The notes under the pieces were generated by a model. It was not told the DNA's origin, did no database searches, and saw only the letters and a program-made list of their open reading frames with translations. Source: Branchiostoma floridae (lineage: Eukaryota > Chordata > Leptocardii > Amphioxiformes > Branchiostomatidae). Taken from it: a stretch of DNA of 64,000 bases. The stretch is taken from contig NC_049992.1 in NCBI RefSeq assembly GCF_000003815.2, forward strand, positions 19,900,356 to 19,964,355. The letters run 5' to 3'. Each line of letters opens with the position of its first letter. Within the stretch, counting starts at the first letter, position 1. The position numbers and the translations under genes are program-made. Positions 21,296-56,060 of the stretch are shown one piece after another.

Positions 21296-21375
21296 TCTTG
21301 GTGTTTTACATGTTTATTGGCTAAGGCATGCTAGACTATTGACACTGATAATTCCTTTGAACTTCTTGCCGCCAG

Positions 21376-24300
21376 ACTGGGTAAGCTGGTGTCCGGCCAT
21401 CCATGGCTGACCATCCTGCTGACCCTGCTCCTTGGTGGTTCCTTATCTGCCGGGATGGTCAAGTTCTACGAGGAAAGGCGCGAAGAAAAACTGTGGACCC
21501 CTTATGGCTCTCGGGTTATTGAGCACCAGAACTGGATCAACGAGAACTTCCCCGCGCAGTTCCGCTTCCAGAACCTGCTGATTGAGGCCGACAACGTTCT
21601 ACAGCCTTCGGTGCTGCGAGCTGTAAGACTATTTTTGTCAACTGCATTTTTTACTAGTACATTCTTTCCATCTTTTAACTCACTGTATAACTCTTGTTCC
21701 ATGATTAGTATTACAATACTAGTAGTGTAGGCTGCCATATGATATTGTTTTTTTTAGAGGCAAAGGTACACTCCCACTGCACTTGCGTCAAGCTTGCGTC
21801 TCTGCGGGGTTCGAGAAATACGAATTTCAGAGATAAAGAACGGATTTTCTTACTTTTTGTGTATTTCGTTATCTCCTCATTCATACTTTTACGTATTACG
21901 CAATATATAAATTTTACAATATCAGTGAAAAACAAAACAAAAAAGTGACGTAATACTATGAGAGTACTCCTTGTTTGGTCCAGACCATTTTGTTTATAAA
22001 GTGAGGCTCTTTATATATATATGCAATAACATGTTTCTGCTGTGCCTAGCTGTCTACAATGGATAGGCGATACTTCTGTTTTACAGCTCTATGATGGCCG
22101 TTACTATACATGACAAAATCAAGACGGCATAGTACTTAATGATATCACTTTCTGCACTTTTTTTTTCATCAGATGCTTGCATTAGACTCAGCAGTTAAGA
22201 ACGTGTCAACGGATGCAGCAAACTGGACATCCATATGTTACCGGTAAGACAAATCTCCATACTTTTAATTTGCAAAATTAAAACTATGAGGAATGAAAAA
22301 TAACGTGTTTATAATTGCAAATTTTACAAGCAGAATAGAACACATTGTGCTTTCTAGGTACGCTTTATCGATATGCAGTTTCACGGTTAATACGATTGAT
22401 CGCGTAAAGCAGTGGTTGCATACACGATCACAAAGAGTAAACAAGATGAGATGTGTTTTGAAAACAAAATAAAAACCGATGGGTCCAAGAAAGCTATTCG
22501 GGTGAAAGCCCTCTTCCCGAGACTCAAAGCCAATTTAAGAAGCACGTAGCATGTTCCGACAAATAAAGGTCTCATTGGTGAACTTAATTCTTCCCATAGA
22601 CCTTTTATTTATTTATTTCCCATAGACCTCTAAGTTATAATACGTGTTTACATGGGCGTGTTCAAGCTACATGAGTTATCAGCATATGATTCGTTCTGTT
22701 ATGAGCACATTTACACTATATCATGGGGAGAAAATGCCAATGACCAGAATCTATACGTGTGATGAGAATCTATCTGTCTGAACAAACTAATTATCATAGC
22801 AAAACATAAGGTGCCTCTTTATTTTAACCGTATATATAATAACCATGAAACGATCTAGACACTAGAACTACAGAGAATGCCCATAAACATAGACTTTCGG
22901 ACTCGATGAATTCAATAATTTAATCTGCACTGATGAACATCACTTTGCGTTCAATTTACAGGATTGGTCATCAATGCTGGTCTAGTAGTCTACTGGAGTT
23001 GTGGAGTTTCAATGAGAATGTCATCAACAGCCTGTCACAGCAGGACATCCTGGACAAAATCAACACAAACAACCTCATAAGGCATGCCTGAAGTCGATAG
23101 ATGACAACAATGCTAATCTATCGTTCTATATGCAGTAATCCATGTTGTCATTGGCTTTTCCATTTCTTCTGTTTGAATTATCTATTTCATTAGGAGGCAA
23201 ATTTAATCTCTCTCTATATATTTATTCCCTCTAGCCCCCTGACATTCCGGCCGTACGATGTTGAGGCCGTGTTGGGAGAAATCCACCGGGACTCTGATGG
23301 TAAGATTTCTGGCGCCAAGGCCACCACAATGCTGTATGCTGTAAAGGACCAGACCATCGAACGACAGGGAGAAAGGGTGAGTTAATATATTTACGGTGTA
23401 TGATAATGGTAGAAAATACAATATCTGTATAGCCTATTCTCTCTATATCTCTTAGAGATAGATTGCAAATCCCTTTCAACTATCTAAATTCTATATTACC
23501 AAGAAACATTAATACTGTACAACTTTCGTAGATAGGACACCTTTTAATATGAGCGAACACTAATAGCATTATGTATTTTAAATAGTTAATACTGATATTA
23601 CTGTGTTAAGCAAATACTATTTTAAATGTTTTGGTAATAACACTTCATTTTATCCCAATACTGTTTTAATTTGTCGGTCTGAAATGCCTTTTAAGAACTA
23701 TGTTATTGCTTTATCGATTTTAACCACTTTGTATGTTAACGGTTTGTAATGACAAGTCGTAATTCAGCCGTGTGGTTGCAATGTCATTGTCAGTTTGTTG
23801 AATTTCGAAATAAACCAGTCATACTTATTAAAAGGTATGGAAAAAGTTTTCACAGGCAAAACTTTACATAATTTATCACTTCTCCACATGAGATACCAGC
23901 AATATCGTGAAGCAAATATAACATGACCCACGACATCTATACTTCTTGTCCAAGTTATTCTGGAATAAAACAATGTCTCAATTTCAATCTCGCTCCAATG
24001 ACGTTTAGGACATTGTGGCAGAAACATGAAGAACTGAATCCTAGTTTCTGCCACATTGTTCTAAAAGTCATGTTGTTTTCTTCTGATGACCTAGTACAAA
24101 GAGAGTTTGAACTACCAAAATGGATGTAAGTACTTCACAGTCATGTAATTTAAAACATACAAACATATCGCCTTTCGTCATAGATTGATGAGATCAGGCT
24201 TGACTGGGAGAAGAAATTTCTGGACGTTGCTTTGGAGGAGAGGTCAGATGTGGTCACCGTGACGCCCTATTCTTCCGAACAAAGGTAGTTTCAAGTTCTT

Positions 24301-27300
24301 TTTTTTTTTAATACTAAATTTATTATTCACGGGCCGGATTTGTTCCGGATGACACCACTTCTTCATCTACAGTTTAGACCTGGTGTGGCTTACATTATCC
24401 CAAGTCTGATGTTCCGTCTTTACCGGTTTTTTTTTACTACGTCTTTGCCTCTTTCCTGATTTCGGACCTTACTAAATGACATTTACTGACTCCGACATTC
24501 GATGGTCGTAAATGCTAATTATGTTTTTATCTCAATGGACACATTAACTATGTAATCTTCATATAACCTATTCCCTCATAAACATAAATAAAAGCGGCCT
24601 GGTGGTCATATTGATTTTTCTTGTAAATGAATAAAGATGAAAACTAAATAACAGGTCCAATATTTTTTTTTGCCAGCTGGATCGACGAAGCACAAGGCCC
24701 TATCCAGAAGAACCTGAACTTGTTGGCTGCTGGCTTTGTCATCTTGTTCGGATACGCGACAATGTCACTGGGCCAGTTTAATTGCATTGGGCAGAAGGTA
24801 TATATATTTTCCTTCTTAAAGCAATGCACGGACATTATCCACAGTTAGAATATAGGAGAATTCTTGGACACAACCAGAAATACTTAATGTGCTTACGTTT
24901 CGGTGTCCATCTGACATCTTACTATAGAGCTTCTGACTATGGAGTTCTGCTTCTCGACGCTGTATATAGGTGATATAGGTGGCGCTTTTGAAGCGAGAAC
25001 AACAATCCAAACGTGGCCAAGTTTGTAACCTCTCTCGTCCTGGTTCATAACTGGGGTTTGACTTTCTTATCCAGACTGCCTCCTTGATCCACTGAATCCG
25101 CCTGTTGTCTTCCTTGTCTATGACTTTGTCCCCCAACCCCTTCCAGCGCCATCTACTTCGGTAACGTGAAGCGGCGAGAAGCAGGACTTCAGTCAGAAGC
25201 TCTGAGGAAAATGTCTGATAGATACCAAAATGTAAGCACTGTATATCCCGGCTGTGTACAAGAATTCTCCTATATCCTTTTTTTTTTCTACCAACCTTCA
25301 TTTATGCATCTCTAGCTGAAATATTAAAAAGCAATCCTAGTATATGTAAGCTTCATATGATGATGTTTATTTGTCCCCGGCCCATCTATAAAAGAAGATT
25401 TTGCGTCGAAAAGATTTCCCTATGAGCCTTATATTTTTAACCTTCAACATGGCGGTTTCTAGATTACGTCATTAAAAGTCACGTGACTCCAATACTTTTC
25501 AGATGTACGTGTCGTTGGCGGGCATGGTGTGCGTGGGGCTGGCAGTGGTCGGAGCCATGGGAGTCTGCTCGGCGGCAGGAGCTGCATACGGGCCCGTCCA
25601 CACCATTCTGCCCTTCCTCATCCTGGGTAGGTGCATTTTCCAAAACATTCCTGTGCACAGTACAAAAGCTATCTAATATGAAAAAAAAATGGTAGTCAGA
25701 ACACGAGTTATGAAAACGATAATCCCAAATTGACAATTTTGTCATTTGCGACGAAGAATACAAAAATAACAAGAGTTCATAGACCTCAGGCCTGCATGAA
25801 ATGTATTAGGTGTCTGTAGACCTATTGTGTATTTTTTTTTCCTTTTCGTCCCTGGTTGCGTATTTTTACCGTGTTGTTGTGCACCATGCAAAAGTCTGAA
25901 ATTCCATTTTCAGAATGTGTAAGTTTGGGCATGGATGAACATTAATTATTTTGGATTTCTTAAGCATGTAACCAACCACAGTACCTTAAAGTTATTGCGA
26001 CGACTTTTCCTACCTTTTTTGGTCTCAGAGTCAGATGGCCCATGTAGTTGTTCCGTCACATATGATATATTCAGTACTGATATCTTCCTATTTCAATGTA
26101 CTGACCTAATGCAGCTGCTAAATCTCCTTATTGTACCAATGCTATTCATTAAAGATTTATTTTTGGAGTGTTATATCACTTGACACTGGAAGGTTATTTG
26201 CATAATTTGAAAAATTATATTTTTACAGTAGTTCCGTAGACAATATGAATTGTGGTAGGCCCCATCCAGCAGCATTAGGGTGGTATGATATTTTGTTCAA
26301 TCCGACAAACTAAAACCTAAATCTCCTGAAGTACCTAAGCCAAATTTTACAGCAGAATTTACTACTCAAAATGTCCTTGTCAATCCCATTCATAAATGGC
26401 AAGCTGCTGGCAACTTTTAAAAGTTCAGAAAGCTGTCGTAGTCAGAGTGAACACCCAGCAAACATCCCCCCAAATCAATGAGCAGCTGCTTAGAGGAGGA
26501 AACAATTTCATCATATTTTTGCAGTGACAAAATGCAACAAACGATACCAAATTTAAAACAAAACAAAGCCTCTACCACTTAACCTTGCCCGTACTATAGA
26601 TTAAGCAGGCCCAAAAATCAAGCAAATATGACTAGCCCCAAACTACAAATTACCTGCATACAATACGGAAATGGCATCCCCAAAGAAACAACAAGAAACA
26701 GGAAAAATCATACACATACCTTTGTCTTACACTCAAGCTCTATACATTTATCCTCCACTTTAGAAAGTCCACTTTAGTATCTTCTGCTGATTGCCAAACA
26801 GGGTAAAGGAACTTGTACCAGAACATTAAACCCAGTACTACACAGCTCTCAAAACACCACAAACTCGGACTAAGAAGCAAACTCAAACTGTACCTAACAA
26901 ATACAGCAACAGATACTAGACTAAGTATATCATCTGGCAGGTCAGACACTGTTGATACAAAGTAACCTGATACATTGAAGGTGGCCCAGGCCAGATGATG
27001 GTTCTAGGTGTAAACTTAAAGACCTCTCAATCGACCAAAACAGATGATGGTTCTACCCAACCCAACCGTCAGCAACCAAGCAGATATTGGGGGGATGCCC
27101 CAACCACACCAAAACAGGGTCAACCTATACAGTATCAAGTTCAAGCACTAGGAGGCCCAAAATCAAACCTCACCACCAGGACACCACTAACAACTCACGT
27201 ACCAAATAGCAACACAATGGCACCTTGCGTTCTGGAGATACAGCGCACGCCCCGTGCCCGCACAAAAGGTAACCTAAAATGTTAAGTTCAAGCACCAAGG

Positions 27301-28837
27301 GCGCCAAAATAAAAAATTAAGAATTATTCACCCATCGCCGACACATGTGCCAAATATCATCGCGCCAGCACCAACCGTTCAGAAGATATAACTCCGGAAA
27401 TACCCCTCTCGGACACAAAATTCAACCTGCCGGGTCAAGTTCAAACGCGGCAAGGCCCAAAGTCAATCCTAGGCAACAGACAACAACCCCCCACCCATGC
27501 ACCAAAAATCGTTGCAATCGCGCGTATCGTTCCGGACACACAGCGCCAAAAGTGCCCCCAAAACACCAAAAATGCCACCTGCAATGTCAAGTTCAAACGC
27601 CAGGAGGCCCAAAATCAAACCTGGGTGTCAGGCCACCACCCCCAACTCACGTACCAAAAATCGTCGTGCTTGCACCATCCGTTCTCGAGATACAGCGCCC
27701 TAAATCCCCAGCTTCCAAATTTTCCCACGCCCGTGAAAACCATACAGGTGTGACAGCGTTCTCGCCCCCCCGTGATATCGCCCCCCCGGGGGCAAAATCA
27801 CTAGTGTTTTCGCCCCCCCCGGGGCAGGATCACTAGCGATTTCGCCCCCCCATCTCGCCCCCCTCTGGTGATTTCGCCCCCCCTCCCGGGGCGAAATCGC
27901 TAGTGTGTATTTACCTGTTTGTATTCTAACAGCAGAGGAACAGGTGGGCATAGCTGTTAATGACAAGTGTGTATTTACCTGTTAGTATTATAACATCAGA
28001 GGAACAGGTGGGCATAGCTGTGAATGAGAAGTGTGTATTTACCTGTTAGTATTATAACAGCAGCGGAACAGGTGCGCATAGCTGTTAATGAGAAGTGTGT
28101 ATTTACCTGTTTGTATTGAACAGGTGCAGGAATAGGTGCGCATACCTTTATGGTGATTAGCATATATTCAACTGTTAGTTTTCTTTCAACTCGAAACAGG
28201 TGTGTTTACCTGTATATTGATAGTCCTATATTTACCCGTTAGTTTTGAACTGACCAGAACAGCCCAGGAACAGGTGTGTTTACCTGTATGTTGATTAGCA
28301 CGTATTTACCTGTTGGTTTTGTTTCAATTCGGATACAGTTGTGTATTGAACACCGGTTAGTATTATCAGCACAGGAACAGGTGTGCTTACCTGTACATGT
28401 ATGTTGATAAGGATGTATTTAGCTGTTAGTTTTGAACATCACAATTTGTTTCAACTCATAGACAGGTGTGTATACCTCTGTGCTGATTGGCAAATATTTA
28501 CTAGTTTTGTTACAACTCAGCAACAGGTGTGTTGATATGCATATGTTAATATACGTTCGTGATGTTAATAAAAGTCACCACAAATTCACAACAAAAATGT
28601 ATCTGTTTTATTTCAATGCAAAGTGTGCTTGCACCAAATCAGGTAGGATCGGCTTCACATGTACTGTATCTCATCTTAACATACTAAGGTGTCACGTATA
28701 TATAGATACCAGGTAACACACTATATACGTTACATCCAAGTACCATATTGTTCCAGGTAGCTCGATTAATATGCAGTAACAAGCTGCAAGTTAAGTATCT
28801 TAAGGCTATGTAAAAAAGTAGGTAAATATATACAAAA

Positions 28838-28884
<47 letters not shown>

Positions 28885-31800
28885 AAAGTAGGTAACAAGA
28901 CAGTGCTAATCATTATCACAGCAATAGGATTAAGATTCAACCGAACACTCTAGAAAACGGGAAGGATATTCCTAGGGGGGGCGAAAACGCTGGGATGGGG
29001 GGGGGCGAAAACGCCAGAGGGGGGCGAAAACGCTAGCGATCTCGCCCCCCGGGGGGGCGAGATCGCGGGGGGGGCGAGATCGCTGTCACACCGGCATACA
29101 TGCAGGTAAAAATACTAGGGGCTTTACTTTGATTTTAAACTTCTCCTCGTTCATGTTGATTAGGTATCGGTGTTGACGACATGTTTGTCATCGTAACTGC
29201 CTGGAACAACCTTTCCCAGGAGGAGAGAAAGCTGGACAGACGACAGCAGGCGGCGCTAGCGCTAAAACACGCGGGCGTCTCTATTACCGTAACCTCCATG
29301 ACGGACGTGGTTGCGTTCGGTGTCGGCGCCTCTACGGTATGTACTGCTTATATTATGATGTACGTCATCAAATATATAAACGACGTTTTCACTCTTCAGG
29401 GGACCCCAGAATCTGCTTGATAGACATGGTAGTTTTGTAATTTCAGTTAATGTTCTAACATGGTGATACTTTATAATAAGGGCTCATTTTTAAAGCGCTT
29501 TAGGCCTCGAAAGACGTGGTAATTCATCGTCGTGCGATCGATCGTTTCGTCGTAGGACTATGACACAACTGCAACTATGATTCTGTTACCAGGCCGCTGG
29601 ATTTTGTACGTACTTTTTGTTAGCAAATGTATTTCAGGCGTATGATAAAAGTGCGTACTATGCCGTGGAGATACGATCTGTTCGGTTATTGAATAACTTC
29701 CAACATCACACCACAGGTCTTACCAGCCTTACAGTCGTTCTGCATCTACGCAGCTGTCAGTGTTTTCCTGGCCTTTGTGTACTCATGTACCCTGTTCTTC
29801 GCCGTGGTGTGCCTTGACTTTCAGCGATGGGAGGTAAGGATCAACATCTCGAAAATTCAAAAATTTGCCTACAATTTGGTCGTATTGGGCGATAGAAATC
29901 TCAACTAGAAATTCCATCTCTGTAAGTAAGAGTTATTCTGAAAAAAAGTTTAACAGTTAAAACTAATCACATACATGTGCTATCTACATAACGCGACACC
30001 ACAGATGCAATGTAGTATATTTTTCTTGACAAAGACTGGTGTCGATCAAATGAAAATCTGGGTAAGTCTTATTTCTTGTGTTGGTATTTCAGCATTATTC
30101 AGAATACTCAAATTCTTAAGTTTTAATTTAATACGCGATCAAGCGGCATTCTGACGAATTCATCCATTTTAAGATATATATTAAAAAAAAAATCATACTC
30201 ATATACGCAATTGTTTTCCAATCTAGGGCAGTCGAAATGCATACTGTTGTTGCTACAAGCACGCGGAAGACTACCGACCAACCGAGTGTTCACAGAAAGA
30301 TCATCTGCAGCTTTTCTTTCAAAAGATCTACGCCCCCGGTCTGCTGACCACCCCTGGCAAGGTTTGTTTCTCCACTGAATTTAGATCAATTTTCTATGTG
30401 TGTGTGTGTGTGTGTGTGCGGCAACCACGTTGACTCGCGGGACCGCGTAGCGCAGTGGTATTGTGTTCGGCCCGTGACCAAGAGGTTGCGGGTTCGAATC
30501 CAGCTGCGTGTCACCGATCTTGTGTCCTTGGGAAAGGCACTTTACACTACTTTCCTCACTTTACTCAGGTGAAAATGAGTACCTAGCTTCGGCTAGGGGC
30601 CGTCCCTCTTATAGGACGTTAAATTGAGGTCCCGTGCCTGGGGAGAGCCATACCCCAGGCACGTTAAAGAACCCGCCACACGTGCGATGGTGCGGTGTGA
30701 GTGGTCCAAAACCTACAGTACCCTGGCCGCACCTGGAGCAATTACTGTCGTATTGAGGTCATCTGAGTGGCGCCGAATGGCAACTCGCTCCAGACCCTTG
30801 CGATTTAGCCCCGCAGTTACGATAGCCCCGCCCATTGTAAGCTTCTCGCAATTCAGCCCCTGGCTGCAAAGGGTGAGTAGTCGATCCACCCAATAACAAT
30901 AACAATAACGGTTTCTGACGGCTTACAGTTTGATATGGGAACATTTCTTTATCGACAGATCGTGACTCTACTCGGAGTGTTCGCCATCCTGGGAGTCAGC
31001 ATTTGGGGATTTATCAACCTCAAACAAAACTGGCGCCCAATCTGGGCCTTAGCCCCGGATTCTTACCTGCGACGGTACTGGGAGAGATCAGAGGCGGTAC
31101 GTATTCAAGCATCGAACACTCACCAATACTGCGCTGGCAGTAAAAACAGAAGTTGTGCGTTGATTTCTTTGAAGATTATTTTCTTATCTCTCTAATTGTC
31201 TCTATCTTTCTTTTACAGTACTTTTCTGGTGATGGAGAAGAAGTTTACATTTACATCGGTATGTTCAATAATTTTTTCGATGTCAAAAAACTTTTTGAGG
31301 GAGTCCCCTATTTCTTACCTCTTTGGACTGAGGAAAGGTACATGTTTTTTCGTGGAAATATTTGTTATCGTTATAAGAATCTAAAATTGAAGATACACCC
31401 TATCCACGCACATACAAACACGCCGATTCTATTTACTGAACAGTAATCATCTACGCAGTTGCAAGAACACCTGTAACTTGTCCTGAACACCATCCACACA
31501 CATGTAGACGCATAAATCCCTAATGCTCGGCACCATCAGATAACCGCACATGTCTTCTGTGCTAAAAACGTTACACTGAATTTTCTGAAAATTGGAGCTG
31601 AACACCCTCCGCACACATGGTAACACACACACAAATCCATGGTGCCACGCACCATCAGACAAACATACATGACCCCTGTGCTGAAGACGATACAAAGACA
31701 AACAGAAATTTACATACATTTATATTCATACTCTTTATCGAGTTGAAGCATTGCCAAAGTTCCGGTTCCCGAGTGATCTATCTTTCATCAGTTCGATGAG

Positions 31801-35200: not shown

Positions 35201-38200
35201 TCAAAATGAGCGATACACACCATGCTGGCTGGAATCTATATGTTACCGCATCATAACCAAAATGAAACGGGGCCTTCTGATTGGTCCGTGGCGCCTGGCT
35301 ATAAGATAAGTATTCTTTACATGTCATCATACAAGTGAATTGTTAGACATGATCTCCTTCCTGCACACTATGAAGCGTAACGTAAGACATGTTCATATGA
35401 TCATATGTCGGCAGGTGGACGTAGGTGGGATGCTGCACCACTGGGGCCTGACCATCGACACGGTGACCACAAACATCATGGTCATCGCCATCGGTCTGGC
35501 CGTCGACTACGCCACGCATATCTGCCATACATTCCTCATTGTCGGTGGCACAAGGCAGGGTAAGGCACGTCTTATATTTTTTTTACTCAATTATCGCTAT
35601 GTAACAATACCCACAAGCCACTTCGAAGTCATGAAATATCACGATAAAGACAACATTGACTACATGAGAGCCAGGGCTAAATAAAACAAGAAAACCTGTT
35701 ACGCTGGCTTCTCGGGTACATTTCTTACCCTGAGTGTACTGAAATGGGTCTGATCCAGTAACACCGGGTGTACCACTTCTCGTGTACTTTCCCGTGTACT
35801 TTTCGCATTTGATATTATATAAAAGAATTTTGGCAAATATTAACATAAAATTCCATCTTTTTTGGTAGATCATTCTGGATGAAGTTGAACTGTATTTTCA
35901 AACACAACAAGTTGGATTTACCTACATTTTCGACCAATCGACTCCAGTATGCATCAAGGAATGGACAATCCGCTGCTGTTGGGACGTCATGTTATGACGT
36001 CATATCTGATTCGGTGCTCATAAGTTGCATAAATTTACCTGCCACCAACCGCGTGGAAGCAGCACAGTTGACTACATAATTTGCAGTCAGTCCCTGATCC
36101 CACATATCTTATCGTTTCACATAAAACCATTAACGTTATTCTCTGATCACTGCATGGTTTGGGCATTAATCCAATCAAAATCAACAAATCACTCTTATCA
36201 AGAAAGCCGGAACATATCAAATGCAAAACCTCTCCCCAAACAGTTTAAATGGAACGATAAAGCAGCCCAGAAGTTCCTTTCTTCTCTCGACCAGTCTCAT
36301 TTCGTCGATAGACTACGTTTACTTTGTTCTAACGTTCCAAACAACATAAACAGCACTTCGGAAATTGATGATTATGTGTCGGAGTTTGGTTCCATTTTGA
36401 GAGAAGCAGGTGACCAGTCGCTGTGTTTGAAAAGGGTAAGGAAACGCCCACGTAAAAGACAAAATAAGAAATGGTTTGACAAAACCTGCTTGGAAATGAA
36501 AAGGGAAGTGAAAAACATAGCATCTTTACTGGAAAAAAATCCGTCGAATCCAGACATAAGGGGTAGATTCTTCAAAAGTAAAAAAGAATATAAGAAATTG
36601 CTAAAAAAGAAAAAACGAGATTTCCACCAACAAATCATGGATCAATTGTCTTCACTAAGGGAAAGAAACCCGAGTGCATTCTGGAATTTGATAAATAAAC
36701 TGAAACCAGGAAAACCAAATGACGATAACCAGATTACAGAAGAGGAATGGGTAAACCACTTCAAGAATCTTGACAAATTTCCTGATAGCCCTACAGACAA
36801 CGGCCTTCCCAGTGAAAACATTCAAACAGACTTTTCGACCACCCCACCAAACTCGTCAGAACTAGATTCCGCAATTACCCCAGAAGAATTGGACACCGCA
36901 GTCTTAAAACTAAAAAAACAATAAGTCAAGCGGCAATGACAGAATTTTGAATGAAATGCTAAAATCTGGTAAAATGTTGCTTAAAGAACCTATACTCCAC
37001 TTGTTTAACACTTGCTTACAAAATGGTCATTTCCCGCAAGAATGGTCAGTAAGTCATTTTGTTCCTATCCACAAGTCAGGAGACACCTCCCTGCCAGATA
37101 ACTACAGAGGGATTTCTATAATCAGCTGTTTAGGGAAATTATTCTCCTCCATTCTAAATTCACGCCTTGTCAAATACGCAGAACACAATAACCTTTTCCA
37201 GCCACACCAAGCAGGCTTCAGACAAAACTTTAGAACTACCGATAATCTGTTTGTTTTAAGTACACTAGTTAGCAAATATCTTAACAAAAACCGTCAACTT
37301 TACGCTTGCTTCATTGATTTTAGCAAAGCATTTGATTCTGTTTGGAGAAACGGCCTCTTGTTTAAATTGAGTAAACTCGGTATTGGTGGTAAATTTCTAA
37401 AAGTAATAAAGGGCATGTATTCAAAGACTATAAACTGCGTTAAATCTAAAAATGGATTGACTGAAACTTTTGTTACTAACTGTGGTGTGAGACAAGGGTG
37501 CAACTTAAGCCCTACATTATTTAACCTTTTTCTTAGCGATATTGTGTCCCAATTTGACGGTGCTCCTTGTAATCCCCCACTTATGCACAGCAAAACTGTC
37601 CCATGCTTGTTGTATGCTGACGACTTGGTAATTTTTTCCGAGTCCAAACAGGGATTACAGCATCCTTGAACAATCTGGAAAATTATGGTGCACTTTGGAA
37701 ATTAAAAGTAAATCTTAGGAAAACAAAAATTATTGTATTTACAAAGGGTGGCAGTCTACCTAAAAACTGTTCTATCCTGTTTGATAATCGTGAAATAGAA
37801 ATTGTAACTTGCTATACTTATCTTGGTATTATTGTGAGTACAGCTGGCACGTTTAAAGCTAACAACAAATACCTGAGTGGCAAAGGTCTGAAGGCTTTAT
37901 TCGGAATAAAGCAGTCTTTAGATAAAGCCACCGCCTCATTACCTGTTAGAAACAAACTTTTCGATGCATGTGTCAAACCTATTCTACTTTATGGCTCAGA
38001 AATATGGGGCGCATTTAAAAGCCCTAAAACCTGTCCCATTGAATCTGTTCACCTTAAATTCTGCAAACAAGCACTAAATGTCCCCAGACCAGCATCTAAC
38101 CTTGCCACAAGAGCGGAATTAGGGAGGTACCCCATTCAACTGGAAGCCTCCCTGAACGCTATCAAACACTTTCTAAGAATCCGTCAAAACGTGCCAGCTG

Positions 38201-40838
38201 ACAGTCTACAAGCCGACGCCCTATCTTGTCAATTACAACTAGATGCTAATGGAAATAAGTGCTGGGCGTCCGGCGTTCGTAAGATACTGGAGGAATGCGG
38301 TTTTGCCTACATATGGAGATCTCAAATATCTCTAGGAACAAACCTATTACCTATAACCAACGCCATCAGCCAACGATTAAAGGATATTTACGTTCAAACA
38401 TTTAGAACCGAAATACACAATGACAACCGGGACAAATCTTTCGGTAACAAATTACGAACCTATAGATTATTCAAGACTATTTATAAAGAAGAAGAATATC
38501 TGATGGTGAAAAACACACAGCACAGATTGGCTGTCACTAAACTCCGGATTAGTTGCCACAAGTTACATATCGAAACTGGAAGGCACAACCGCACCCCTCT
38601 GCAGCATAGAGTCTGCCAATTTTGTGATCTACAACATGTAGAAGATGAACAGCATTTTATTTTACACTGTAAATTGTACCATAATGAACGGATTGTGCTT
38701 TATGAATATATCAGAAAAGAGTTCCCATATGTTGAACATCTTAATGCAACGGATAAATTTCTATTTTTGATGCGCCTAGACAAACCCTGTATATCAAACA
38801 TTATATGTTCTTATATCTACACCTGTACAAAGAAGCGAGAAGATGTCGACAATCCTGTTAGCTTAGTACCTTCAACTAGTTAAATTGTATCCTGTTGTTT
38901 TTTTTTCATATATTTGTTACATGTATTCTGTTATCAGTCATGTCTGTTATCAGTGACCTGTACCTAGCCCGTCGAGGCATGAATGTACAATAAAGGTCTT
39001 TCATTCATTAATTTTTTTTCAGAAAGAGCTCTTCTGACTCTATCCAACATGGGCCCAGCAGTCTTTAACGGAGGGTTCAGCACATTTCTGGCTATCGTGC
39101 TGCTGGCATCTTCACAGCACTACGTCTTTATAACTTTCTTCAAGGTGAGATAGACGCGCACTACGCCCGATCTGATTTTAGTTGTTTTTGCCGCAAGCCT
39201 TGATATCTGATCCTAAAAAACAAGGCGAACATTCTAAACAGAGTAGGATATTGTGATGATAATTGGTGTGATAGTCTTTTCTGCTTTACTGAAGCTTCAT
39301 ATTATTAGTCTAACGACTGAAAAATAAGTATATACACTTCGGCTATGGACGTCTCTTGGATAGGACGTAGAAGGAAGACCTGTGATCGGGGAGAGTCACA
39401 CGATTGTGTGGTTTATGTGTGATGGTGTGGTATGCAATGGTGCAAATCCCTATCGGTGTATCCTACGTTGTGAGTCGTCCTAAAAACCATACACATTGTT
39501 GTAGAGCCAAACAAAATTTCCCTGAGATTGTAATATTAGAAAAATGAATTCCACACCTTGCACCTTCCAAAAACAACCGTACTACAATGCAAAACAACAA
39601 AACGGATGATTAAAAACTTTATGATAAAATAGAACTTTTGCAGTGTAATATGAATTAAAACCAAGGTTTCTTTATCCCTTCCTTCCCGAGGTGTTTTTCC
39701 TCGTCCTGCTGTTCGGATGTCTCCACGGGCTGGTGTTCCTGCCGGTCATACTGAGCTGGCTGGGACCGGCTCCGTACGACACGGCCCCGGTACGGGACAC
39801 GGCCCCGGCACAGGACTCGGAACAGTCCGACAAACGGTACATCAGGAAGGTTCAGACTCAAGGTTTCGTCAACCCAGGTCTGGAAATGGACGGGGTAGGT
39901 TGATGGCAATAAAGTTTAATTATAGTTCCTGAGCATGTTTAAAGTATGATTCCAACAAAATAAAAGCTAAACGTAAGGGATATGCAGATTTTTCACTGTT
40001 CCATAGTTTCTTTGTAAAAAAAAAACAATTCTCCTCTTCGTCAAAATATCATTTATATTCATCTTTCTGCAAGGAAGGTAAACTTAAAGTTAACATTTGA
40101 ACGAGTTCAACTTTTATTGAGCAATGAAACATCATTAACCTATTTTACATCATAATAAATGCTACTAACTTTGTAAATCCTTATTGACCGTCGGGACAAC
40201 TGACGAACTTTTTATACTTTATACTCTCCTTAGATATTGCAAGGAAAAAATCTATTAAACAATGATAAAGTATATTTTCATACCTGTATATCATTTTCTT
40301 TCGATAGGACGTCAGAACCGGGGTGCCTGAAAATCGTTCAGACGTCGTCCCCTGTGTGATGTCCCGGCCTGAGTACCCCCCTGATATCCCTTCGCCAGAT
40401 TACAATGTTTCACCAGCCTCAACAATCAGACATATCGCAAACACTGGCAACTCCGTACATGGTCATGCTGAAGCTACCGTCCAATGGGGATCCCGTAATA
40501 AAATCCCAGAAGTGAACCAATTGGACGTCCGGATAGACAACATGATCACCGCAGCGAACCAGAAACTGTTCCTGTTACGCCGACTTAAGAGATGTGGGGT
40601 ATCAACAGAAGACCTTACAACAGTCTACACGGCCTATGTTCGACCCTCTGTTGAATACGCAATGCCTGTGTGGTACAACTCTGTAACTGCCGCTCAATCT
40701 GAAAAACTAGAACGCGTACAGAAGAGGGTGTGCCGAATCATACTGGGTATGCAGTACACAGACTACATGTCAGCTCTGAGCACACTCAACATCAGCTCCT
40801 TGGCAGAACGGCGTGAAAGACTCGATCTGTGTAACTGA
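21376..40838 (+). CDS. PTCHD3-like: Patched domain-containing protein (PTCHD3-like), at least 20 exons
   Basis: RND-superfamily membrane protein with a sterol-sensing-type domain. Exons: 21376-21622, 22173-22243, 22962-23081, 23235-23376, 24184-24284, 24677-24797, 25503-25626, 29164-29336, 29717-29833, 30227-30361, 30959-31096, 31219-31258, 32304-32459, 33132-33259, 33544-33696, 34614-34739, 35415-35559, 39023-39144, 39691-39894 and 40308-40838. Phases agree across every junction, giving about 1,030 residues. The first exon with the start codon is not visible. Visible order: TM1, extracellular loop, sterol-sensing TM cluster (from ~237) with GIGVDDMFVIV (~309), second loop, then the second TM cluster with GLAVDYATHICH (~727), the RND GxxxD-type motif. 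Introns after 23081 and 33696 need GC donors. Substrate is unknown; relatives handle sterols or lipids. The last exon is chimeric with reverse transcriptase. Confidence 0.9.
24851..25274. mobile_element. Foldback element in a PTCHD intron
   Basis: Arms of about 135 bp at 24851-24990 and 25144-25274 are diverged reverse complements. The outermost 16 bases (tataggagaattcttg) match exactly, and blocks such as 'agagcttctgact' and 'ctgcttctcg' recur. The loop is about 150 bp. A pseudo-exon-like frame in the right arm has no compatible splice phase, and the flanking exons join directly in phase 0. Confidence 0.75.
27130..27725. repeat. ~150-bp satellite, four diverged units
   Basis: Units start near 27136, 27282, 27434 and 27586, each with 'aagttcaa', then 'ggcccaaa', then a 'caactcacgtaccaaa'-like block, then 'gttctggagatacagcgc'. 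The stretch is GC-richer than the surrounding intron, so long open frames run through it, but the periodicity explains them. Confidence 0.75.
27902..28530. repeat. 64-bp minisatellite rich in CAGGTG, inside the foldback element
   Basis: Three well-conserved 64-bp units start at 27902, 27966 and 28030 ('agtgtgtatttacctgtt' then 'gaacaggtg'). A fourth at 28094 leads into longer, degenerate copies. CAGGTG or its complement recurs about ten times in 630 bp. Confidence 0.85.
28844..28880. repeat. (TA)n microsatellite
   Basis: About 37 bases of TA, inside the foldback element. Confidence 0.95.
30437..30910 (+). mobile_element. tRNA-derived SINE in a PTCHD intron
   Basis: The head has box A 'gcgtagcgcagtggta' and a near-consensus box B 'ggttgcgggttcgaatcc'. 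The body matches the 8.2-kb copy ('gtgtcaccgatcttgtg', 'gtacctagcttcggctagg', 'cacgtgcgatggtgcggtg'). The tail ends in (AATAAC)n at about 30893-30910. It sits between exons ending 30361 and starting 30959 in sense orientation, leaving only about 48 bp to the acceptor. Confidence 0.88.
31455..32225. repeat. Degenerate ~110-bp repeats in a PTCHD intron
   Basis: Copies near 31470, 31590, 32060 and 32180 share 'gaacaccatcc', 'cacacatg', 'gcaccatcag', 'caaacac' and 'tgtgctga' in order. The two pairs are separated by unrelated sequence at about 31700-32040. Non-coding. Confidence 0.65.
35102..35220. repeat. Intronic foldback hairpin
   Basis: 'gtgtgtatcgattc...tgattgg' at about 35102-35127 pairs with 'ccaatcaaaatgagcgatacacac' at about 35196-35219, and the middle contains further self-complementary 'gatgcaaat' blocks. 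It is likely the core of a MITE. Confidence 0.5.
36020..39005 (+). mobile_element. 5'-truncated non-LTR retrotransposon in a PTCHD intron
   Basis: The element keeps the C-terminal part of the endonuclease (motifs VDYIICS and SDHCMVW), a full reverse transcriptase (PIHKSGD, DNYRGIS, YACFIDFSKAFDSVWRN, RQGCNLSP, YADDLVIF) and a C-terminal zinc-knuckle-like CxxC...H...C region (QFCDLQHVEDEQHFILHC). Two single-base frame shifts break it, one at an A run near 36910 and one near 37655; otherwise it is open to 38883. The 3' end has AATAAA followed by a TCATTCATT tail. The N-terminal endonuclease half is absent. The clade was not determined. Confidence 0.9.
36025..38883 (+). pseudogene. LINE endonuclease/reverse transcriptase reading frame, frameshifted
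   Basis: Three consecutive frames, 36025-36924, 36947-37669 and 37666-38883, together read as one retrotransposon polyprotein. The endonuclease end is in the first, RT fingers/palm with the catalytic YADD in the second, and thumb and zinc-knuckle regions in the third. The two breaks are one-base indels, so this copy is dead or mis-sequenced but young. Same strand as the host gene. Confidence 0.85.
39320..39500 (+). mobile_element. 5'-truncated SINE fragment
   Basis: Body motifs of the 8.2/30.4-kb SINE recur in order ('cttcggctatgg', 'ggataggacgt', 'cggggagagtcacac', 'tgtgatggtgtgg'), but the tRNA-like head is missing. It lies in the PTCHD intron 39145-39690. Confidence 0.65.
40308..40838 (+). 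other. Chimeric last exon: PTCHD tail fused to LINE RT C-terminus
   Basis: The acceptor 'tttcgatag' at 40307 joins in phase 0 to the PTCHD exon ending 39894. The first ~65 codons are hydrophilic and include RPEYPPDIPSPDY, as expected for a cytoplasmic tail. From about 40516 the same frame is unmistakably the C-terminus of a non-LTR reverse transcriptase (ANQKLFLLRRLKRCGVSTED, AYVRPSVEYAMPVW, VQKRVCRIILG), running to a stop at 40836-40838. LINE-like sequence continues past the stop, two bases out of frame. Either an exonised LINE or an abutting insertion that left an accidental open frame. Confidence 0.7.
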
Positions 40839-42464: not shown

Positions 42465-43085
42465 CACAAATAGATGAGCACTTGTTGGGAAGGAAAATGT
42501 TATTTTTTAGTTGTTTGAGTTTGAATGTCAATATTGTAAATTGTAATAAGGTCCGTATGTTACTGTTTATAATTGTGGGAGGATGTAATAATCATGTCAT
42601 GGTTTATCAAATATAAAGTCTAAACGGCACAATGATACCGACCAAAGCGTACACAAATACCCCAGACTCGGACTATTTTACAATTAACACTCAAATGGCT
42701 TTCAGAATTTTTACAACAGTAAGGTCTGGACTATTTTTCTGGAAAAGTCTGAACACGGCTCAAACAGCATATTTTGATATATCGGCGGAAAAGTATTTAA
42801 CGAATGAGCACAAGAAACCAAGTGCTTCGTGTCACTCATTTAAATATACATTACGAGATTGTTGATAAACGAGGTATTTGAACCTTCCCTTATCTCCGTT
42901 CACACCAGAATGGTTAGCACTGTGATTAAACCTTGTTTTGCGACACCGCTCCAGCCGGGATGAGAGATAATTCACTTATCTTACCTCGATCATTAACTGT
43001 CAGTTTTTTGTGAAACAGTTTGAATTCTTTTATGCATGGTCGGTAACATACGTTCAACAAGAAAGCCTAGAAGTTTTATTCTACA
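42465..43085 (+). repeat. Three-copy interspersed repeat, copy 2
   Basis: 42797-43085 matches 55745-56060 closely ('gagcacaagaaac', 'tcatttaaatatacattacg', 'agattgttgataaac', 'ctccagccgggat'). Similarity continues upstream: 'agatgagcacttgtt' at 42472 corresponds to 54773, and 'gttctggac/ggtctggac' blocks also match. Copies 2 and 3 are therefore remnants of one larger unit. Confidence 0.75.
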
Positions 43086-43436: not shown

Positions 43437-43573
43437 CGTCGAAAATATACTGTAGAACAGACAAGTCGAAAATACCACAATATACTGTAGAACAGACAAG
43501 TCGAAAATACCACAATATACTGTAGAACAGACAAGTCGAAAATACCACAATATACTGTAGAACAGACAAGTCA
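43437..43573. repeat. 35-bp minisatellite, about 3.7 copies
   Basis: Three perfect 35-bp units ('gtcgaaaataccacaatata' then 'ctgtagaacagacaa') follow a partial first unit. There are no spacers, and near-identity implies recent expansion. Confidence 0.95.
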
Positions 43574-46745: not shown

Positions 46746-49469
46746 CTACTCAATGATTTTACAAGTTTGCACATCTTGAGTGAGAGCTGTAAATAAATAC
46801 AATACATTGTGGTTTCTAAGTAACTCCTTGTTGTCTTTATATCTGGTCCACGATACAAATATGGCGTATTTTGCAAGAGTAACATAAAAGTTACCTCCAA
46901 AAAGTACAGAAGCTGTAGTATTGATGGCTATGTTAATGCCAGATTGGGAAAGCAAGTGTTTAACTTCGTCCCAATAGCCTCTTAACCTTACACACTCAAA
47001 GAACATATGTGAATAATTTTCGTCTTGGTTGCAAATCGCACATTTAGGGCTGTAGATAGTCCCAGAGGTGTCTACTATTTTCCATTTATGAAGTAAGAAT
47101 CTGCAAGGGAGGATTTTGTGCAATAATTTAAAATTAAACTCTTTCAACTTATTCTCTTTTAACTTCAGGGTCTGAGATCTCCATATATTCGTCCAATTTA
47201 AGTTAGGAAATATGCTATCCCAATAAGCTTGAGAAGAAGGTTTTGTTAGGGTTTTGGCGAGACAAAGAGAATACAAATATTTACTACTGAGTTTTACTAC
47301 TGGTATTTTACAAAAATTAATCCAAAACATGTAATCCTCCTTGCAAACTTTTATCTTAAAATTCTTATTTGACCAAATTCTATCATCATTAATTTTTGCA
47401 AGATCCCTCCTCCCCCCTCCAAGTTCCTGCCAGGCCAAGACTACCTCCCTATAAAAGGGTGGTAGTTGTGTCAGGGGTGGGGCATTTCTTTTAACATTAA
47501 AGTTACATCTAAAAATATTACAGTATTTTCCGAGTTTTTCAATAAAGTGTAAGGGTATTACTTGCCATCGTCTTATGTTATCTTGATTTGTCTGTAGCAA
47601 TCTCTTTACCCATGACGCTTGTAAGCTTTTACACTTGGAATATATGTCTGTCATTTTGATTCCCCCGTCGGTATAACTGGAATATAGTGCTGTACGCTTT
47701 ATTTTGTCAGGTTTGTTGTCCCAAAGAAATGAGAAGGTTAATTTCTGAGTTTTCTTAAGTACCCATTCTGGGGTTGGGATCATAAACATGTTGTAGATAA
47801 TTTGAGACAGGGCTAAAGTTTTTATAACATAGCATTTTCCATATAAAGTTAATTTGCGTTTCTGCCACCTTCGAAACATATTTTCAATTTTGTTTATCCG
47901 TTTGTCCCAATGTAAGGTTTCGCATAGTTCTTCTGAAAGGCTGAAGTATAGTCCCAGAGACTTGATAGGTGTCCCCGGCCATGTGATACCAAAGGGTTTG
48001 TCTCTGCGGTGTTGGAAGGACCCTATCCATAGTGCTTCGCACTTTTTAAGGTTCAATCTGGGTCCTGCGACTTTACTAAACTTATCTACAATGTTAAGGG
48101 CAGTTTGTATTGAAAGGTCATCCGACAGTGTAAGTGTAGTATCGTCAGCAACTTGACTGATCTTTACTTCATACTCAAGATCGTGAACCTTGACCTTGAT
48201 TCCTTTAATTAAATCGGTATGTCGAATTTTAAGTGCCAGTATTTCTACAACTAAATTAAATAAAAGAGCAGAGAGTGGACAGCCCTGCCGGATGCCACGC
48301 TGCAGTTTGAAAAAGGCTGTCTTCCAGCCGAAGTTAGTCAAACAACATTCAATATCTGTATACATCATTTTCACCAAGGAAATAAAATTTGGTCCAAAGC
48401 CAAATTTCTGAAGGGTTTTGAGCATGAAGTTCCAGTTCACCATATCAAAAGCCTTTTGAAAGTCGAGGCAAATAATGGCTCCAGGAATGTTATAATGGTT
48501 GCAGTAATATATAACATCATGTATAACACGGACATTCTGACCGATAAATCTGTTTTTCAAATACGCTGTTTGGTCGTGTGAAATAAGGTTGGGTAGAGCT
48601 GCTTGGAGTCTTTTCGCCAGAGCAGCTGCCAACAACTTATAATCAGTATTAAGGAGACTAATGGGTCTCCAGTTAGCGAGATCTTTTCTGTCTCCCTTCT
48701 TAAAGATAAGTTTAAGGACTGCTCTTTTTTGAGACGGAGACATACATCCCTTTTCCATAGATTCTTTGAGAGCATCAAAAACAAAGTCTCCAATACTGTT
48801 CCAGAAAGTAAGATAGAATTCGGCGGGAAGTCCGTCCGTTCCTGGGGATCTATTTGTTTTCATAGCTTGCAAGGCCTCAAAATATTCCTCCTTTTCTAGA
48901 GGTTTCTCAAGAATCAATTTTTTATGTTCGGAAAGGCTGGATTCTAGCTCAACAGTCTCAAGGAACATATCAATTTCCCTGTCAGAGACTGAACAGTCGC
49001 TGGTATATAGACGTTCATAGAATGATTTTTCTAACTGTAAGATTTTCCCCTGGTCTGTTACATCAGTGTCTCCATCACTCAGTTTTGTAATATTATTGTT
49101 TGCAGCTTGCCATTTTTCAAGGTTGACAAAATAAGAGAGAGATTTTTCTCCCTTCTCAGTCCATTCTGCCCGTGCTCTAATTTGTGCACCTCTGGCTTTT
49201 GACTGGTAGATTTTCTCAATCTCAGTTTTTACAGTGGTATATTCGTTCAGAGTTGTCTCATCCAGGTTTTCGTCTATTTTATGATCTAATTCCAATAATC
49301 TTTTTTCTAAGTAGATAAGATTTCCTTTCATTTGAATGGCTTTCTGTTTACAGAAGCCAATTGAGAATTCCTTGATTCGTTTTTTGATAAGTTCCCATAG
49401 GAGCTGTTTAGAAATAGTCGTGTTCTTGTATTCCAAATTAACATCTAAATATAGAATTTTTGACGCCAT
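46746..49469 (-). pseudogene. LINE ORF2, reverse transcriptase part
   Basis: About 900 residues. The RT region is clear: KTNRSPGTDGLPAEFYL, LIFKKGDR, NWRPISLLNTDYKLL, AIICLDFQKAFDMVNW, RGIRQGCPLSALLFN and a catalytic box read here as QVADDTTL (ADD retained). The C-terminal CxxC...H...C knuckle (CAICNQDENYSHMFFEC) follows. It is out of frame by one base with the endonuclease part; the junction is near 49438-49469. The ATG at 49469 is probably incidental. Confidence 0.9.
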
Positions 49470-50253
49470 CCATGTAATCCTGATCGGAAAGATATGCGGT
49501 ATTTAAGCGCCATAGTCCTGGTCCGCGCTTTTCTTTGTTTAATCGTATTTTTAGAAAGATAGCTTTATGATCGGATTTGATGGATGGTTTGATAGTGCAC
49601 TGTAAAACGTGGTCAACCAAAGATTTTTGAATAAGCCAAAAGTCTATTCTGGTGGACACTGGATAGGGATTCTTCCTTGTCCAGGTGAATTGTTTGCTCT
49701 GGGGATGGTTTTTCCGCCAGATGTCAACAAGTAAAAGATTTTGTTTTAAATTATTCAAGGAATTCCCACCTGTGGGTGTCTTCGTTGCATGTTTTGAATG
49801 TCTGTCTAGCCCATTATCATTTAAATCATTGAAGTCTCCACCTGCGATGAGGTTAGTGACCTGATTGTCAGTAACCCAATCACAGAGATCGCTGAAGAAT
49901 TTCCCTCTTTCAGTGCGATCATTTGGAGCATACACATTAAGAATACAGTGATCTTTCAGTACAACAATCAATTTTCTTCCATCGTTACCCTTTAACACAT
50001 CAACAACATCAACATCAAGTCCTTTCCTGATAAGTATTGAAACTCCTCGACTGTGAGTGCTACCAAAGTCATGAAATTGTACTCCGTTCCAGTCTAATTC
50101 AAGATCGCATTCAATGTCAGCTGTAAAATATGTCTCCTGAAGGAGGAAAATGTCTGCTTTTTGTTGACTTAGCCAGAGGTAAACGGTAGCTCGTTTGCGT
50201 TTATCACGCAAGCCACGAGCGTTTAGAGAAAGAAAACTAATAGCTGAAGCCAT
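49438..50253 (-). pseudogene. LINE ORF2, apurinic-type endonuclease part
   Basis: About 270 residues of exonuclease-endonuclease-phosphatase fold: LSLNARGL, LLQETYF (catalytic Glu), NVYAPND, AGGDFND, FTWTRKNPYPVSTRIDFWLI and SDHKAIF (catalytic Asp/His). It starts with Met at 50253, 52 bp after the ORF1 stop, and breaks off by frame shift before the RT part. Confidence 0.9.
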
Positions 50254-50304
50254 GGTGGTGAGTGTAACTTACAGTAGCAACAGTCTCAGGAGGAGACTAA
50301 CAGT

Positions 50305-51387
50305 TCATGTTCCATCTCCAGAGTTCTCACCGGACAGGTCGTCGGCAGCGTTGCGACTTGTCTCTATCAGGTCGTCGATGCGTTGTCTTAAGGCTCGATC
50401 ATCAGTGCTTTTGCTGCTAGCCGCAGTCGACGACGGGGGGTTCTTCTTTGTAGCACTTCTCGTTGCCACAGTTGATTCGGTGGGCCGGTGTGTTGTCTGA
50501 GTTCTTTTCTTATTTCTTTGTGGTTTCGGTGCAGTGAAGTCAGTGATTTGGCTTTGTTTTCCTTTTTTCTGCTGGTTTTTCTCAAGCGTGTTACAGTGTT
50601 CATCTTGTTCAGGTGAGCTAGGGGTGAGCTGAACATATGCTGTGCTGACTTGACTCTGCTGTTCTTTGCTGGATCCCTCTTCCCTTACGGTGGTCTCACC
50701 ACTGAGGTGTGGGGCAGGGGTGGGAGCGTCACGAACGCTGTCCTCAAGGACTGGTCGCGGTCGATGTGAGGCCTGCGGAGGAGGGGGTTTGGGTTGGTCT
50801 CGGTAGAACACTCTAGCCTTCCATCGCCCTCCAAGCTCCACAAATCTTGGGATATGTTCAGAAGGGTTAGTTGGAGGTGCCATAAAGGCGAAACGGTCTC
50901 CGGTTTCACAGTTGGTAAGTTTACTATCAACTCGAAGCATTTCGCGCTTCAGGGGTCCAAGGAGCTTAACACCGTAGCTTTTCAGGCCAGACGCTATGAC
51001 TCCATCGTCAACGGAGAGGGGTACATCTCGGACTGTGATTCTAACACCATTTCGCTGCTGAAAAGGGTGATTGTCACTGATTTCAACATACTTGTCGCGA
51101 AGGCTAATCCCAGACGCGATGAGGGAAGCACGTTCCTCTGGATCACGTAAGTAGAGACGCCATAATCCGCGAACCTGTTGAATCCCGGCTATATTTGACG
51201 CTTGAACACAGCGCGCTACGGCTTTGTAGACCTCGACATTCGTGAAGAAAGTCTCAGTAGGACTAACGGCATGGACATCCTTCTCCAGAAAGAAGACTGG
51301 TTTGCAGGAGGATGCTGGAGTTCCGTTAGGGGCCGTCGCGACGGTGTCTATAGCCTTGCCATTAATGACTGCTGACACGTAACTCAT
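50305..51387 (-). CDS. LINE ORF1 protein
   Basis: 360 residues, uninterrupted. The N-terminal half looks like an RRM-type nucleic-acid-binding domain (FTNVEVYKAVARC, VRGLWRLYLRDPEERASLI, VRITVRDVPLSVDDGVIASG). The remainder is a long Pro/Ser/Thr/Lys/Gln-rich hydrophilic tail. In LINEs ORF1 binds the element RNA. Assignment rests on position upstream of ORF2 and composition. Confidence 0.85.
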   Translation of the reverse strand: MSYVSAVINGKAIDTVATAPNGTPASSCKPVFFLEKDVHAVSPTETFFTNVEVYKAVARCVQASNIAGIQQVRGLWRLYLRDPEERASLIASGISLRDKYVEISDNHPFQQRNGVRITVRDVPLSVDDGVIASGLKSYGVKLLGPLKREMLRVDSKLTNCETGDRFAFMAPPTNPSEHIPRFVELGGRWKARVFYRDQPKPPPPQASHRPRPVLEDSVRDAPTPAPHLSGETTVREEGSSKEQQSQVSTAYVQLTPSSPEQDEHCNTLEKNQQKKGKQSQITDFTAPKPQRNKKRTQTTHRPTESTVATRSATKKNPPSSTAASSKSTDDRALRQRIDDLIETSRNAADDLSGENSGDGT

Positions 51388-51623
51388 GGCTATCGGTGGG
51401 AGGGGGGTGGTGATCGTCGTTGTACTGATCAGAAACGAAGTTCGACAAAGGAATCGTAGGGAAAGTTGAACTCACCACCTTATCCCAGGACCTTTGTAGA
51501 TGTGTTACGGAGCGGATGAGTTGAGAAAATTGCGAAGAAAATGTTGAGAATAGGCAATAGAACTCTGGAAAGTGCAGAGCTCTAGAAAAGGCAGCTAGCC
51601 ACCTCGCAAGGCATCATGGGAAC

Positions 51624-52160: not shown

Positions 52161-53110
52161 ATTACCCTCATCCGACCGTTACATTTTTACGACGAATCTG
52201 ACCGTATGGGGTCATTTTTGACCCCATTTTGTTTTGCTCATAGACATATTGCTGCCGGCTTATTTTTTTCATTTCTATGTATTTAATGTTTCACTAATCT
52301 ATGAAAAATATTTTGACAAGTTTTGGTGTCAGTAGTTATTACTCATTATCATAATTTATGCAGAAAATGAGGAGAAACCACATTTGCTCTAAAAATCTAC
52401 CATACTCAACTTACTTAAACAATGTTTTGTCTTATCAATTTCTAAACAATAATTGTGATGATGCAATAATACTGATAGCAAAATAGTGTTATTTAACAAG
52501 AAAAAATACAATATTTGTGAAAAGTAACGAATTTATTACTTAATTATGCACCATATTCCGCCATCTAAACACATACATACAATAACTCTTGTCTATTTTC
52601 CCGCAAAGAGCTTTCTTGTAGGTTCCTTCTGCACATTCTGTCCATATATTATTTTTTAATTAATTAGAAACATTTTCACTTTCATTAGCATAGGTAATTA
52701 GTGCGTATTATCATAATTCATGCATAATGTCGAAAAACTGTGTTTTACACTAAAATACTAAATGTCTTTGAAAATATTCGGTGTTTACTCATCTAAGCAA
52801 CTATAACTTCTTGCTGTAATAGCAATGATGAGGAATGTCTTTTATTTTATTAAAATTTCTTGATATTTATGTAATTAATTATTCACAATTGGCTGGGGTC
52901 ATTTTTGACCCCACCGAACAAGACACAAACTTTCAATTATAGCTTATACAATAATGGGCAAAACTCGGTGAAAATTTGGTAGATGCTGTAAGACATGTAT
53001 ACAAACAAATTCATGGAAGTAATTTTTTCTCTGATGAAAAATGTTGCTCTGGCAGATTAAAATATACGCCTGGGGTCAAAAATGACCCCATACGGTCAGA
53101 TGAGGGTTAA
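52161..53110. mobile_element. Non-autonomous piggyBac-like element, ~950 bp
   Basis: The right end reads 'gaccccatacggtcaga', then 'tgaggg', then TTAA (53107-53110). Its reverse complement recurs at the left ('tgaccgtatggggtca' near 52199) behind an extra terminal block starting 'attaccctcatccgaccg' beside the gap. The palindrome ggggtcatttttgacccc occurs left and centre (near 52209 and 52905), with its complement on the right near 53073. AT-rich interior without coding capacity. Confidence 0.75.
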
Positions 53111-55744: not shown

Positions 55745-56060
55745 TAACAAATGAGCACAAGAAACTATGTGCTCTGCGTCACTCATTTAAATATACATTA
55801 CGAGATTGTTGATAAACAAGATATTAGATCCTTCCGTTATCTCCGATCACCCCAGAATGGTTAGCACTGCTTAAACCGTAGCTACTGTTGTTGTACGTGC
55901 GGTCACTGACCTTGTGTCGCGACGCCGCTCCAGCCGGGATTGGGGAGAATTCACTCATCTTACCTCGATCGTAATCTGTCAGCTCTCGTGTAACCACTGG
56001 AATTCTTTTACGCTTGATATCCGGCAACATACGTTTAACAAGAAAGCCAAGAATGTTTGT
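55745..56060 (+). repeat. Three-copy interspersed repeat, copy 3
   Basis: Matches 42797-43085 in direct and 16885-17165 in inverted orientation. In reverse complement about 100 codons are open here, including MSEFSPIPAGAASRHKVSDR, and part of that frame persists in copy 1. No protein family is recognised. Confidence 0.75.

Follow-up and report, generated by a model that had tools for sequence, protein, structure and literature searches.

The window analysed here (the whole 64-kb stretch of DNA) contains two inverted arms packed with C/G tracts, and these raise the question of whether they are the ends of a mobile element or the outcome of simple-repeat growth in place. Within an intron of a Patched-type animal gene, the arms bound an insert (27747-29092; 1,346 bp, i.e. 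1.35 kb) that has no recognisable genes. As argued below, the insert is likely to be a non-autonomous class II DNA transposon with a foldback architecture, and the gene whose intron it entered is of the Patched/sterol-sensing-domain kind. Its features suggest a passenger DNA transposon belonging to the foldback type, which has long been known, and not a novel kind of element.

With its 40% GC, introns, reverse-transcriptase frames and the Patched-type gene, the window resembles an animal genome. The frames 25476-25673 and 29160-29399 match the Patched profile at positions 22-69 and 68-131, respectively. Since the second match takes up the profile where the first leaves it, the two exons flanking the insert are consecutive. 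Judged by eye from the splice sites, the intron between them spans about 25627-29163, and the right end of the element lies about 70 bp before the exon. No Patched match was found for the frame 21335-21730 (searched against Pfam and solved structures), nor for the frames 24648-24845 and 23194-23382; the gene assignment therefore rests on the two exons. Two other repeats occur in the neighborhood: an inverted pair at 24847-25278 (79% over 115 columns), a short way upstream of the 25.5-kb Patched exon, and, immediately to the left of the element, a degenerate tandem array at 27096-27709 whose period is about 150 bp. A relationship between this array and the element was considered and rejected, as the last unit of the array, compared with the sequence to the right of the element, gives a best score of 26, and 32 on the reverse strand, which stays within the noise (maximum of 33 in 300 shuffles).

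The insert and its immediate edges comprise the following features.

27741..27746, + strand: CATACA directly abutting the left arm, a possible target-site duplication (left copy)
27747..27901, + strand: left arm, GGTGTGACA and then a C-tract module (16-18 bp), with six copies in direct and three in inverted orientation; homologous to the right arm
27791..27855, + strand: extra left-arm module material, its exact place unsettled as two alignments position the gaps differently
27902..28144, + strand: 64-bp minisatellite, 3.8 copies with 90% matches, abutting the left arm (Tandem Repeats Finder)
28145..28545, + strand: degenerate continuation of the minisatellite (repeat families D2, D4 and D7), ACAGGT copies 61-107 bp apart
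28546..28973, + strand: AT-rich interior, array-free save for (TA)22 at 28839-28882 and short two-copy matches; no coding domain in the frames scanned
28974..29092, - strand: right arm, from the terminus inward GGTGTGACA and then the module in five direct copies and one inverted copy
29093..29094, + strand: GG, separating the right terminus from the right CATACA; either filler or the last two bases of that terminus
29095..29100, + strand: CATACA adjoining GG, a possible target-site duplication (right copy)

The first-pass annotation had proposed that the element has matching termini, and this holds: the 12-bp sequence GGTGTGACAGCG is present exactly at 27747-27758 (+) and 29081-29092 (-), the two copies facing each other from 27747 and 29092. 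These are the sole two exact matches in the window. Once up to two mismatches are allowed, the window holds four matches, with 2.76 expected by chance, so the 12-mer alone proves little. The similarity extends well into the arms, as the regions 27747-27818 and 29019-29092 align by BLAST in inverted orientation with 87.8% identity over 74 columns. The local alignment of the arms scores 99, whereas 1000 dinucleotide shuffles of both arms average 20.6 (sd 3.0) and do not exceed 34. When gaps are introduced, their placement being uncertain, 9 of the 96 ungapped columns differ (five transitions, four of them at CpG sites, and four transversions), and there are 50 gap columns including end gaps. The BLAST match starts exactly at the terminus on both sides. 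The ungapped repeat finder (pair I6), however, carries the terminal match 5 bases beyond the terminus at 90% overall; the edge is thus sharp according to BLAST, yet not beyond doubt.

We also asked how the arms rank among inverted pairs of the window lying at most 4 kb apart. The arm pair scores 86.9; in 10 versions of the window shuffled in blocks of 200 bp, the top pair reached 41.9-69.8. With pairs among the facing TG/CA microsatellites near 11.5-12.0 kb set aside, two pairs outscore the arms slightly (59997/60460 with 89.7 and 24847/25278 with 87.8), so inverted pairs are not rare in the window.

Several of these and other repeats deserve mention in their own right. The pair at 59997-60460 is a 49-bp perfect inverted pair, within which another inverted repeat is nested (by eye). 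The region 52161-53110 is an inverted-repeat element. Its left end, which borders an assembly gap, is ATTACCCTCATC, its right end in the inward direction is TTAACCCTCATC, and it has a 31-bp perfect inner match (52196-52226/53071-53101); with its TTAA and CCCT ends it resembles a piggyBac-type MITE. Inverted arms of about 150 bp (70.5%) with the ends TAATGCGTGGCAC and TAATGCCTGACAC delimit the region 53381-54081, and an 18-bp tandem repeat (53878-53920) just inside its right arm makes it the second element in the window to combine arms with a small array. A 35-bp tandem repeat at 43444-43572 has 3.7 copies at 100%. On the minus strand, 46746-51471 is probably a non-LTR retrotransposon, having a 918-residue reverse-transcriptase frame (RVT_1) and two further long frames upstream. 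By eye, the frames at 36010-38883 (+) resemble these, and the one scanned (36010-36924) had no Pfam match. Finally, a dispersed repeat at 16916-17152 matches 42829-43001 (68.1%) and 55772-56006 (80.6%), both in inverted orientation.

To return to the insert, its arms are composed largely of one module of 16-18 bp, roughly GCG(A/T)T(T/C)TCGCCCCCC, from which some copies depart. All 12 window matches to TCGCCCCCC fall within the arms (0.08 expected), as do 11 of the 13 matches to GCGAAAWCGC at no more than one mismatch (2.97 expected). These counts confirm the earlier description of the arms as repeated C/G-tract blocks accompanied by short inverted copies. The right arm, moreover, has a near-perfect palindrome at about 29034-29066. 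We then compared the order of the modules in the two arms, using for each the 18 letters leading up to and into its tract, of which the last 6 are the shared tract start. Five of the six left modules find their best right partner in the same order: L1-R1 (17/18), L2-R2, L3-R3, L4-R3 and L6-R4 (16/18 each). The remaining 25 of the 30 left-right pairs agree in 9-15 of 18 letters, these being raw counts without a shuffle control. Module L5 is out of order, its best match being R2 (15/18), and R5 has no ordered partner. We conclude that both arms descend from one ancestral arm, with the left arm holding extra unit material. The largely kept module order indicates shared descent, as arms that had grown independently would hardly keep it. 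The foldback-type structure proposed at first is accordingly supported.

The evidence for a target-site duplication is less clear-cut. If the element is taken as 27747-29094, CATACA becomes a perfect adjacent 6-bp duplication and the right end gains two bases (GG) relative to the left, the right flank sequence being GGCATACA. If it is taken as 27745-29094, the ends are CAGGTGTGAC and CCGGTGTGAC, and the duplication shrinks to CATA (4 bp). When 10-bp segments were drawn from the window at random in pairs (20,000 pairs), a 6-mer was shared with a frequency of 0.0083, and an adjacent duplication of at least 4 bp arises across nine boundary choices with a frequency of 0.0365 (20,000 draws). A wider scan covering 15 bp on each side returned CATACA as the only match, and a match of at least 6 bp at the same tolerance occurs in 0.147 of 1500 random pairs. 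The duplication suggested by the first-pass annotation thus adjoins the element on both sides, though at the cost of two additional right-hand bases, and we regard it as weak, suggestive only. No duplication of 8-10 bp was found in the 15 x 15 bp flanks at up to one (8-9 bp) or two (10-11 bp) mismatches, and a longer imperfect duplication of the Mutator type, looked for within 15 bp of the ends, was likewise rejected.

The interior had been described as a 64-bp tandem array, and this proved correct for part of it. The array proper occupies 27902-28144, each of its four units carrying both ACCTGT and ACAGGT; degenerate units follow to about 28545, and 28546-28973 is other sequence. The array is best seen as cargo. 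Transposons that generate or carry tandem repeats are well described (PMC9659126). Among the 42 frames of at least 30 residues overlapping the element, eight were scanned and gave no Pfam match above the cut-off. A coding remnant was rejected, the same eight frames yielding a sub-threshold match to DUF1067 only (E 0.031; 15.5 bits, the cut-off being 25). Structured RNA was rejected as well, as zero Rfam families reached the gathering score across 26900-29300.

The arms are predicted to form strong secondary structure. As single-stranded DNA, the right arm alone (28974-29092) has a predicted fold with a z-score of -5.0 and the left arm alone (27747-27896) one of -3.9; none of 200 shuffles folded as well in either case. 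The predicted minimum-energy DNA fold of the whole element, for which shuffles at that length were not made, pairs the two termini. The large hairpin envisaged for the arms would therefore agree with the whole-element fold, at the level of prediction. The accompanying idea that the arms form G-quadruplexes was rejected. Motifs with loops of up to 7 are absent from the arms on either strand, and only looser ones (loops of up to 12) are present there, three (28975-29005, 29051-29074 and 27765-27787) out of eight in the window.

How, then, should the insert be classified? MITEs are usually below about 600 bp, high-copy and non-coding. The insert has 1,346 bp and is domain-free in the frames scanned. 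In keeping with foldback elements, its inverted arms are for the most part stacks of a short module, which could be counted in both arms and keeps mostly the same order in the two; the arm lengths of this one copy differ through module number, the left arm having the extra unit material; and the arms should be able to snap back, as the predicted pairing of both termini suggests.

Among the known systems to which the insert can be compared, the closest in architecture is Tm1, a Mutator/Foldback element of root-knot nematodes (PMC3169594). Both have composite arms with a variable number of repeats (about 14 bp in Tm1), so that the arms of one element can be unequal in size; both have a short asymmetric sequence at the extreme ends; and MITE-like non-coding copies are described for Tm1 too. 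The differences concern the module sequence, the presence here of modules inverted within an arm, and the 9-bp duplications and many copies of Tm1 as opposed to at most 6 bp and one known copy here (PMC3169594). Since a duplication of 8-10 bp (9 bp in Tm1) was not found in the 15-bp flanks, we did not file the insert under Tm1 or Mutator-type foldbacks. Tetris and Galileo are looser parallels than Tm1. Tetris of Drosophila virilis is, like the insert, an apparently non-autonomous foldback whose inverted arms contain tandem repeats and which lacks a conserved ORF, yet its repeats are about 220 bp, its arms up to 1,735 bp and its duplications 8-10 bp (PMC4079207). Galileo of Drosophila shares the long, internally repetitive Foldback-like arms, but is a P-element relative with a known transposase and is likened here by description and not by sequence (PMC3688188).

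Two further systems resemble the insert in its contents. Rehavkus carries a minisatellite beside one of its inverted arms, which measure tens to hundreds of bp; it differs in its PHD-finger transposase and 9-bp duplications and is recorded in the cited report from arthropods and annelids only (PMC6446971). In the insert there is no 9-bp duplication, a PHD-finger transposase was not found in the 8 of 42 frames scanned (a non-autonomous copy would lack it too), and the array abuts one arm where Rehavkus has its minisatellite by the 3' arm, there being no gene to fix the 3' end. The BrickBuilt MITE of Porphyromonas gingivalis likewise has a minisatellite inside a small inverted-repeat element, though it is bacterial, with 23-bp units and small inverted-repeat ends (PMC4596501). 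Composite arms (Tm1, Tetris) and internal minisatellites (Rehavkus, BrickBuilt) both have precedents, which refutes the initial impression that the arms and their contents are unlike anything known. The insert is foldback-like in the way it would work and is assigned to no particular family.

Searches for further copies covered the window and external sequence sets. No second copy was detected in the 64-kb window at E 0.01. The exact 24-base terminal pattern is absent from viral contigs and prokaryote genomes; since an animal element would hardly be expected in either collection, this absence is uninformative about an animal family. In the literature text searched, four papers contain one of four end strings; their titles concern two cancer topics, FBN1 diagnostics and yeast metabolites, and we took them for chance or primer matches. 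Family reports such as Repbase Reports lay outside the scope of that search, so that absence from it means little. With just one copy known, mobility, family and novelty cannot rest on the insert alone. That it represents an undescribed foldback family, in which palindromic C-tract modules in both orientations give strong hairpins in each arm and a 64-bp minisatellite is spread as cargo, is a tentative and rather doubtful proposal.

Could the arms have arisen without a transposon? They might reflect local growth of C/G-tract simple repeats combined with a chance inversion and involving no transposition. The arms are indeed composed of short repeats, no other copy was seen in the sequences searched, the duplication is weak and one left module is out of order. 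On the other hand, five of the six left modules have a positional counterpart on the right, both ends carry the identical non-tract terminus GGTGTGACAGCG, and on either side the terminus is where the BLAST match begins. The arms, being largely colinear, argue against local simple-repeat expansion, and given the 1000 shuffles together with the module order (the latter without a shuffle control) we hold a chance or simple-repeat origin of the arms to be quite unlikely. Equally improbable, in our judgment, is that one arm was duplicated in inverted orientation where the DNA had broken, through foldback repair or as a palindromic duplication, and that unrelated sequence later split the two copies. 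Such an event would yield colinear arms without any transposase, and the arm palindromes, if they fold as predicted, could prime it; it does not, however, predict CATACA on both sides, and the interior of about 1.07 kb would have to arrive separately.

A different possibility is that the insert is a decayed autonomous element, for example of the Rehavkus or Mutator type, whose transposase gene has been lost beyond recognition. This overlaps with the non-autonomous foldback reading and was judged separately, so the likelihoods expressed here are not meant to add up to a whole. Rehavkus arms measure 26-400 bp with a minisatellite next to one arm (PMC6446971), and here too the array abuts one arm. 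Nevertheless, with no above-cut-off Pfam match in 8 of 42 frames, no 9-bp duplication and an interior of just about 1.07 kb, we think it improbable.

We therefore favor the non-autonomous foldback transposon. The homology of the arms and their largely colinear modules, their makeup as module-built TIRs, the common terminus, the zero recognised domains in the frames scanned and the location in an intron are the observed part of this reading, and from it we infer how the element may have been mobilised. A transposase made elsewhere (in trans) would bind the repeated arm modules, pair the two ends and move the element. The modules would then be probable repeated transposase-binding sites, several per arm strengthening or specifying the binding. 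A precedent for such binding to modules is provided by the multiple transposase-binding sites of Galileo, where footprinting found one site, from whose sequence additional ones were then recognised in the tandem repeats that make up the long arms (PMC3688188). Module number per arm could change by unequal exchange or slippage; Tm1 arms likewise vary in repeat number (PMC3169594). The interior minisatellite might be a passenger grown by slippage or gap repair.

What the present evidence mainly shows is that the arms were inherited as inverted repeats and did not arise as simple-repeat noise; the understanding of foldback elements is left unchanged by this insert. If other copies exist, the foldback architecture would gain an animal example, and the insert would provide a case of a transposon carrying a minisatellite beside strongly structured arms within a gene.
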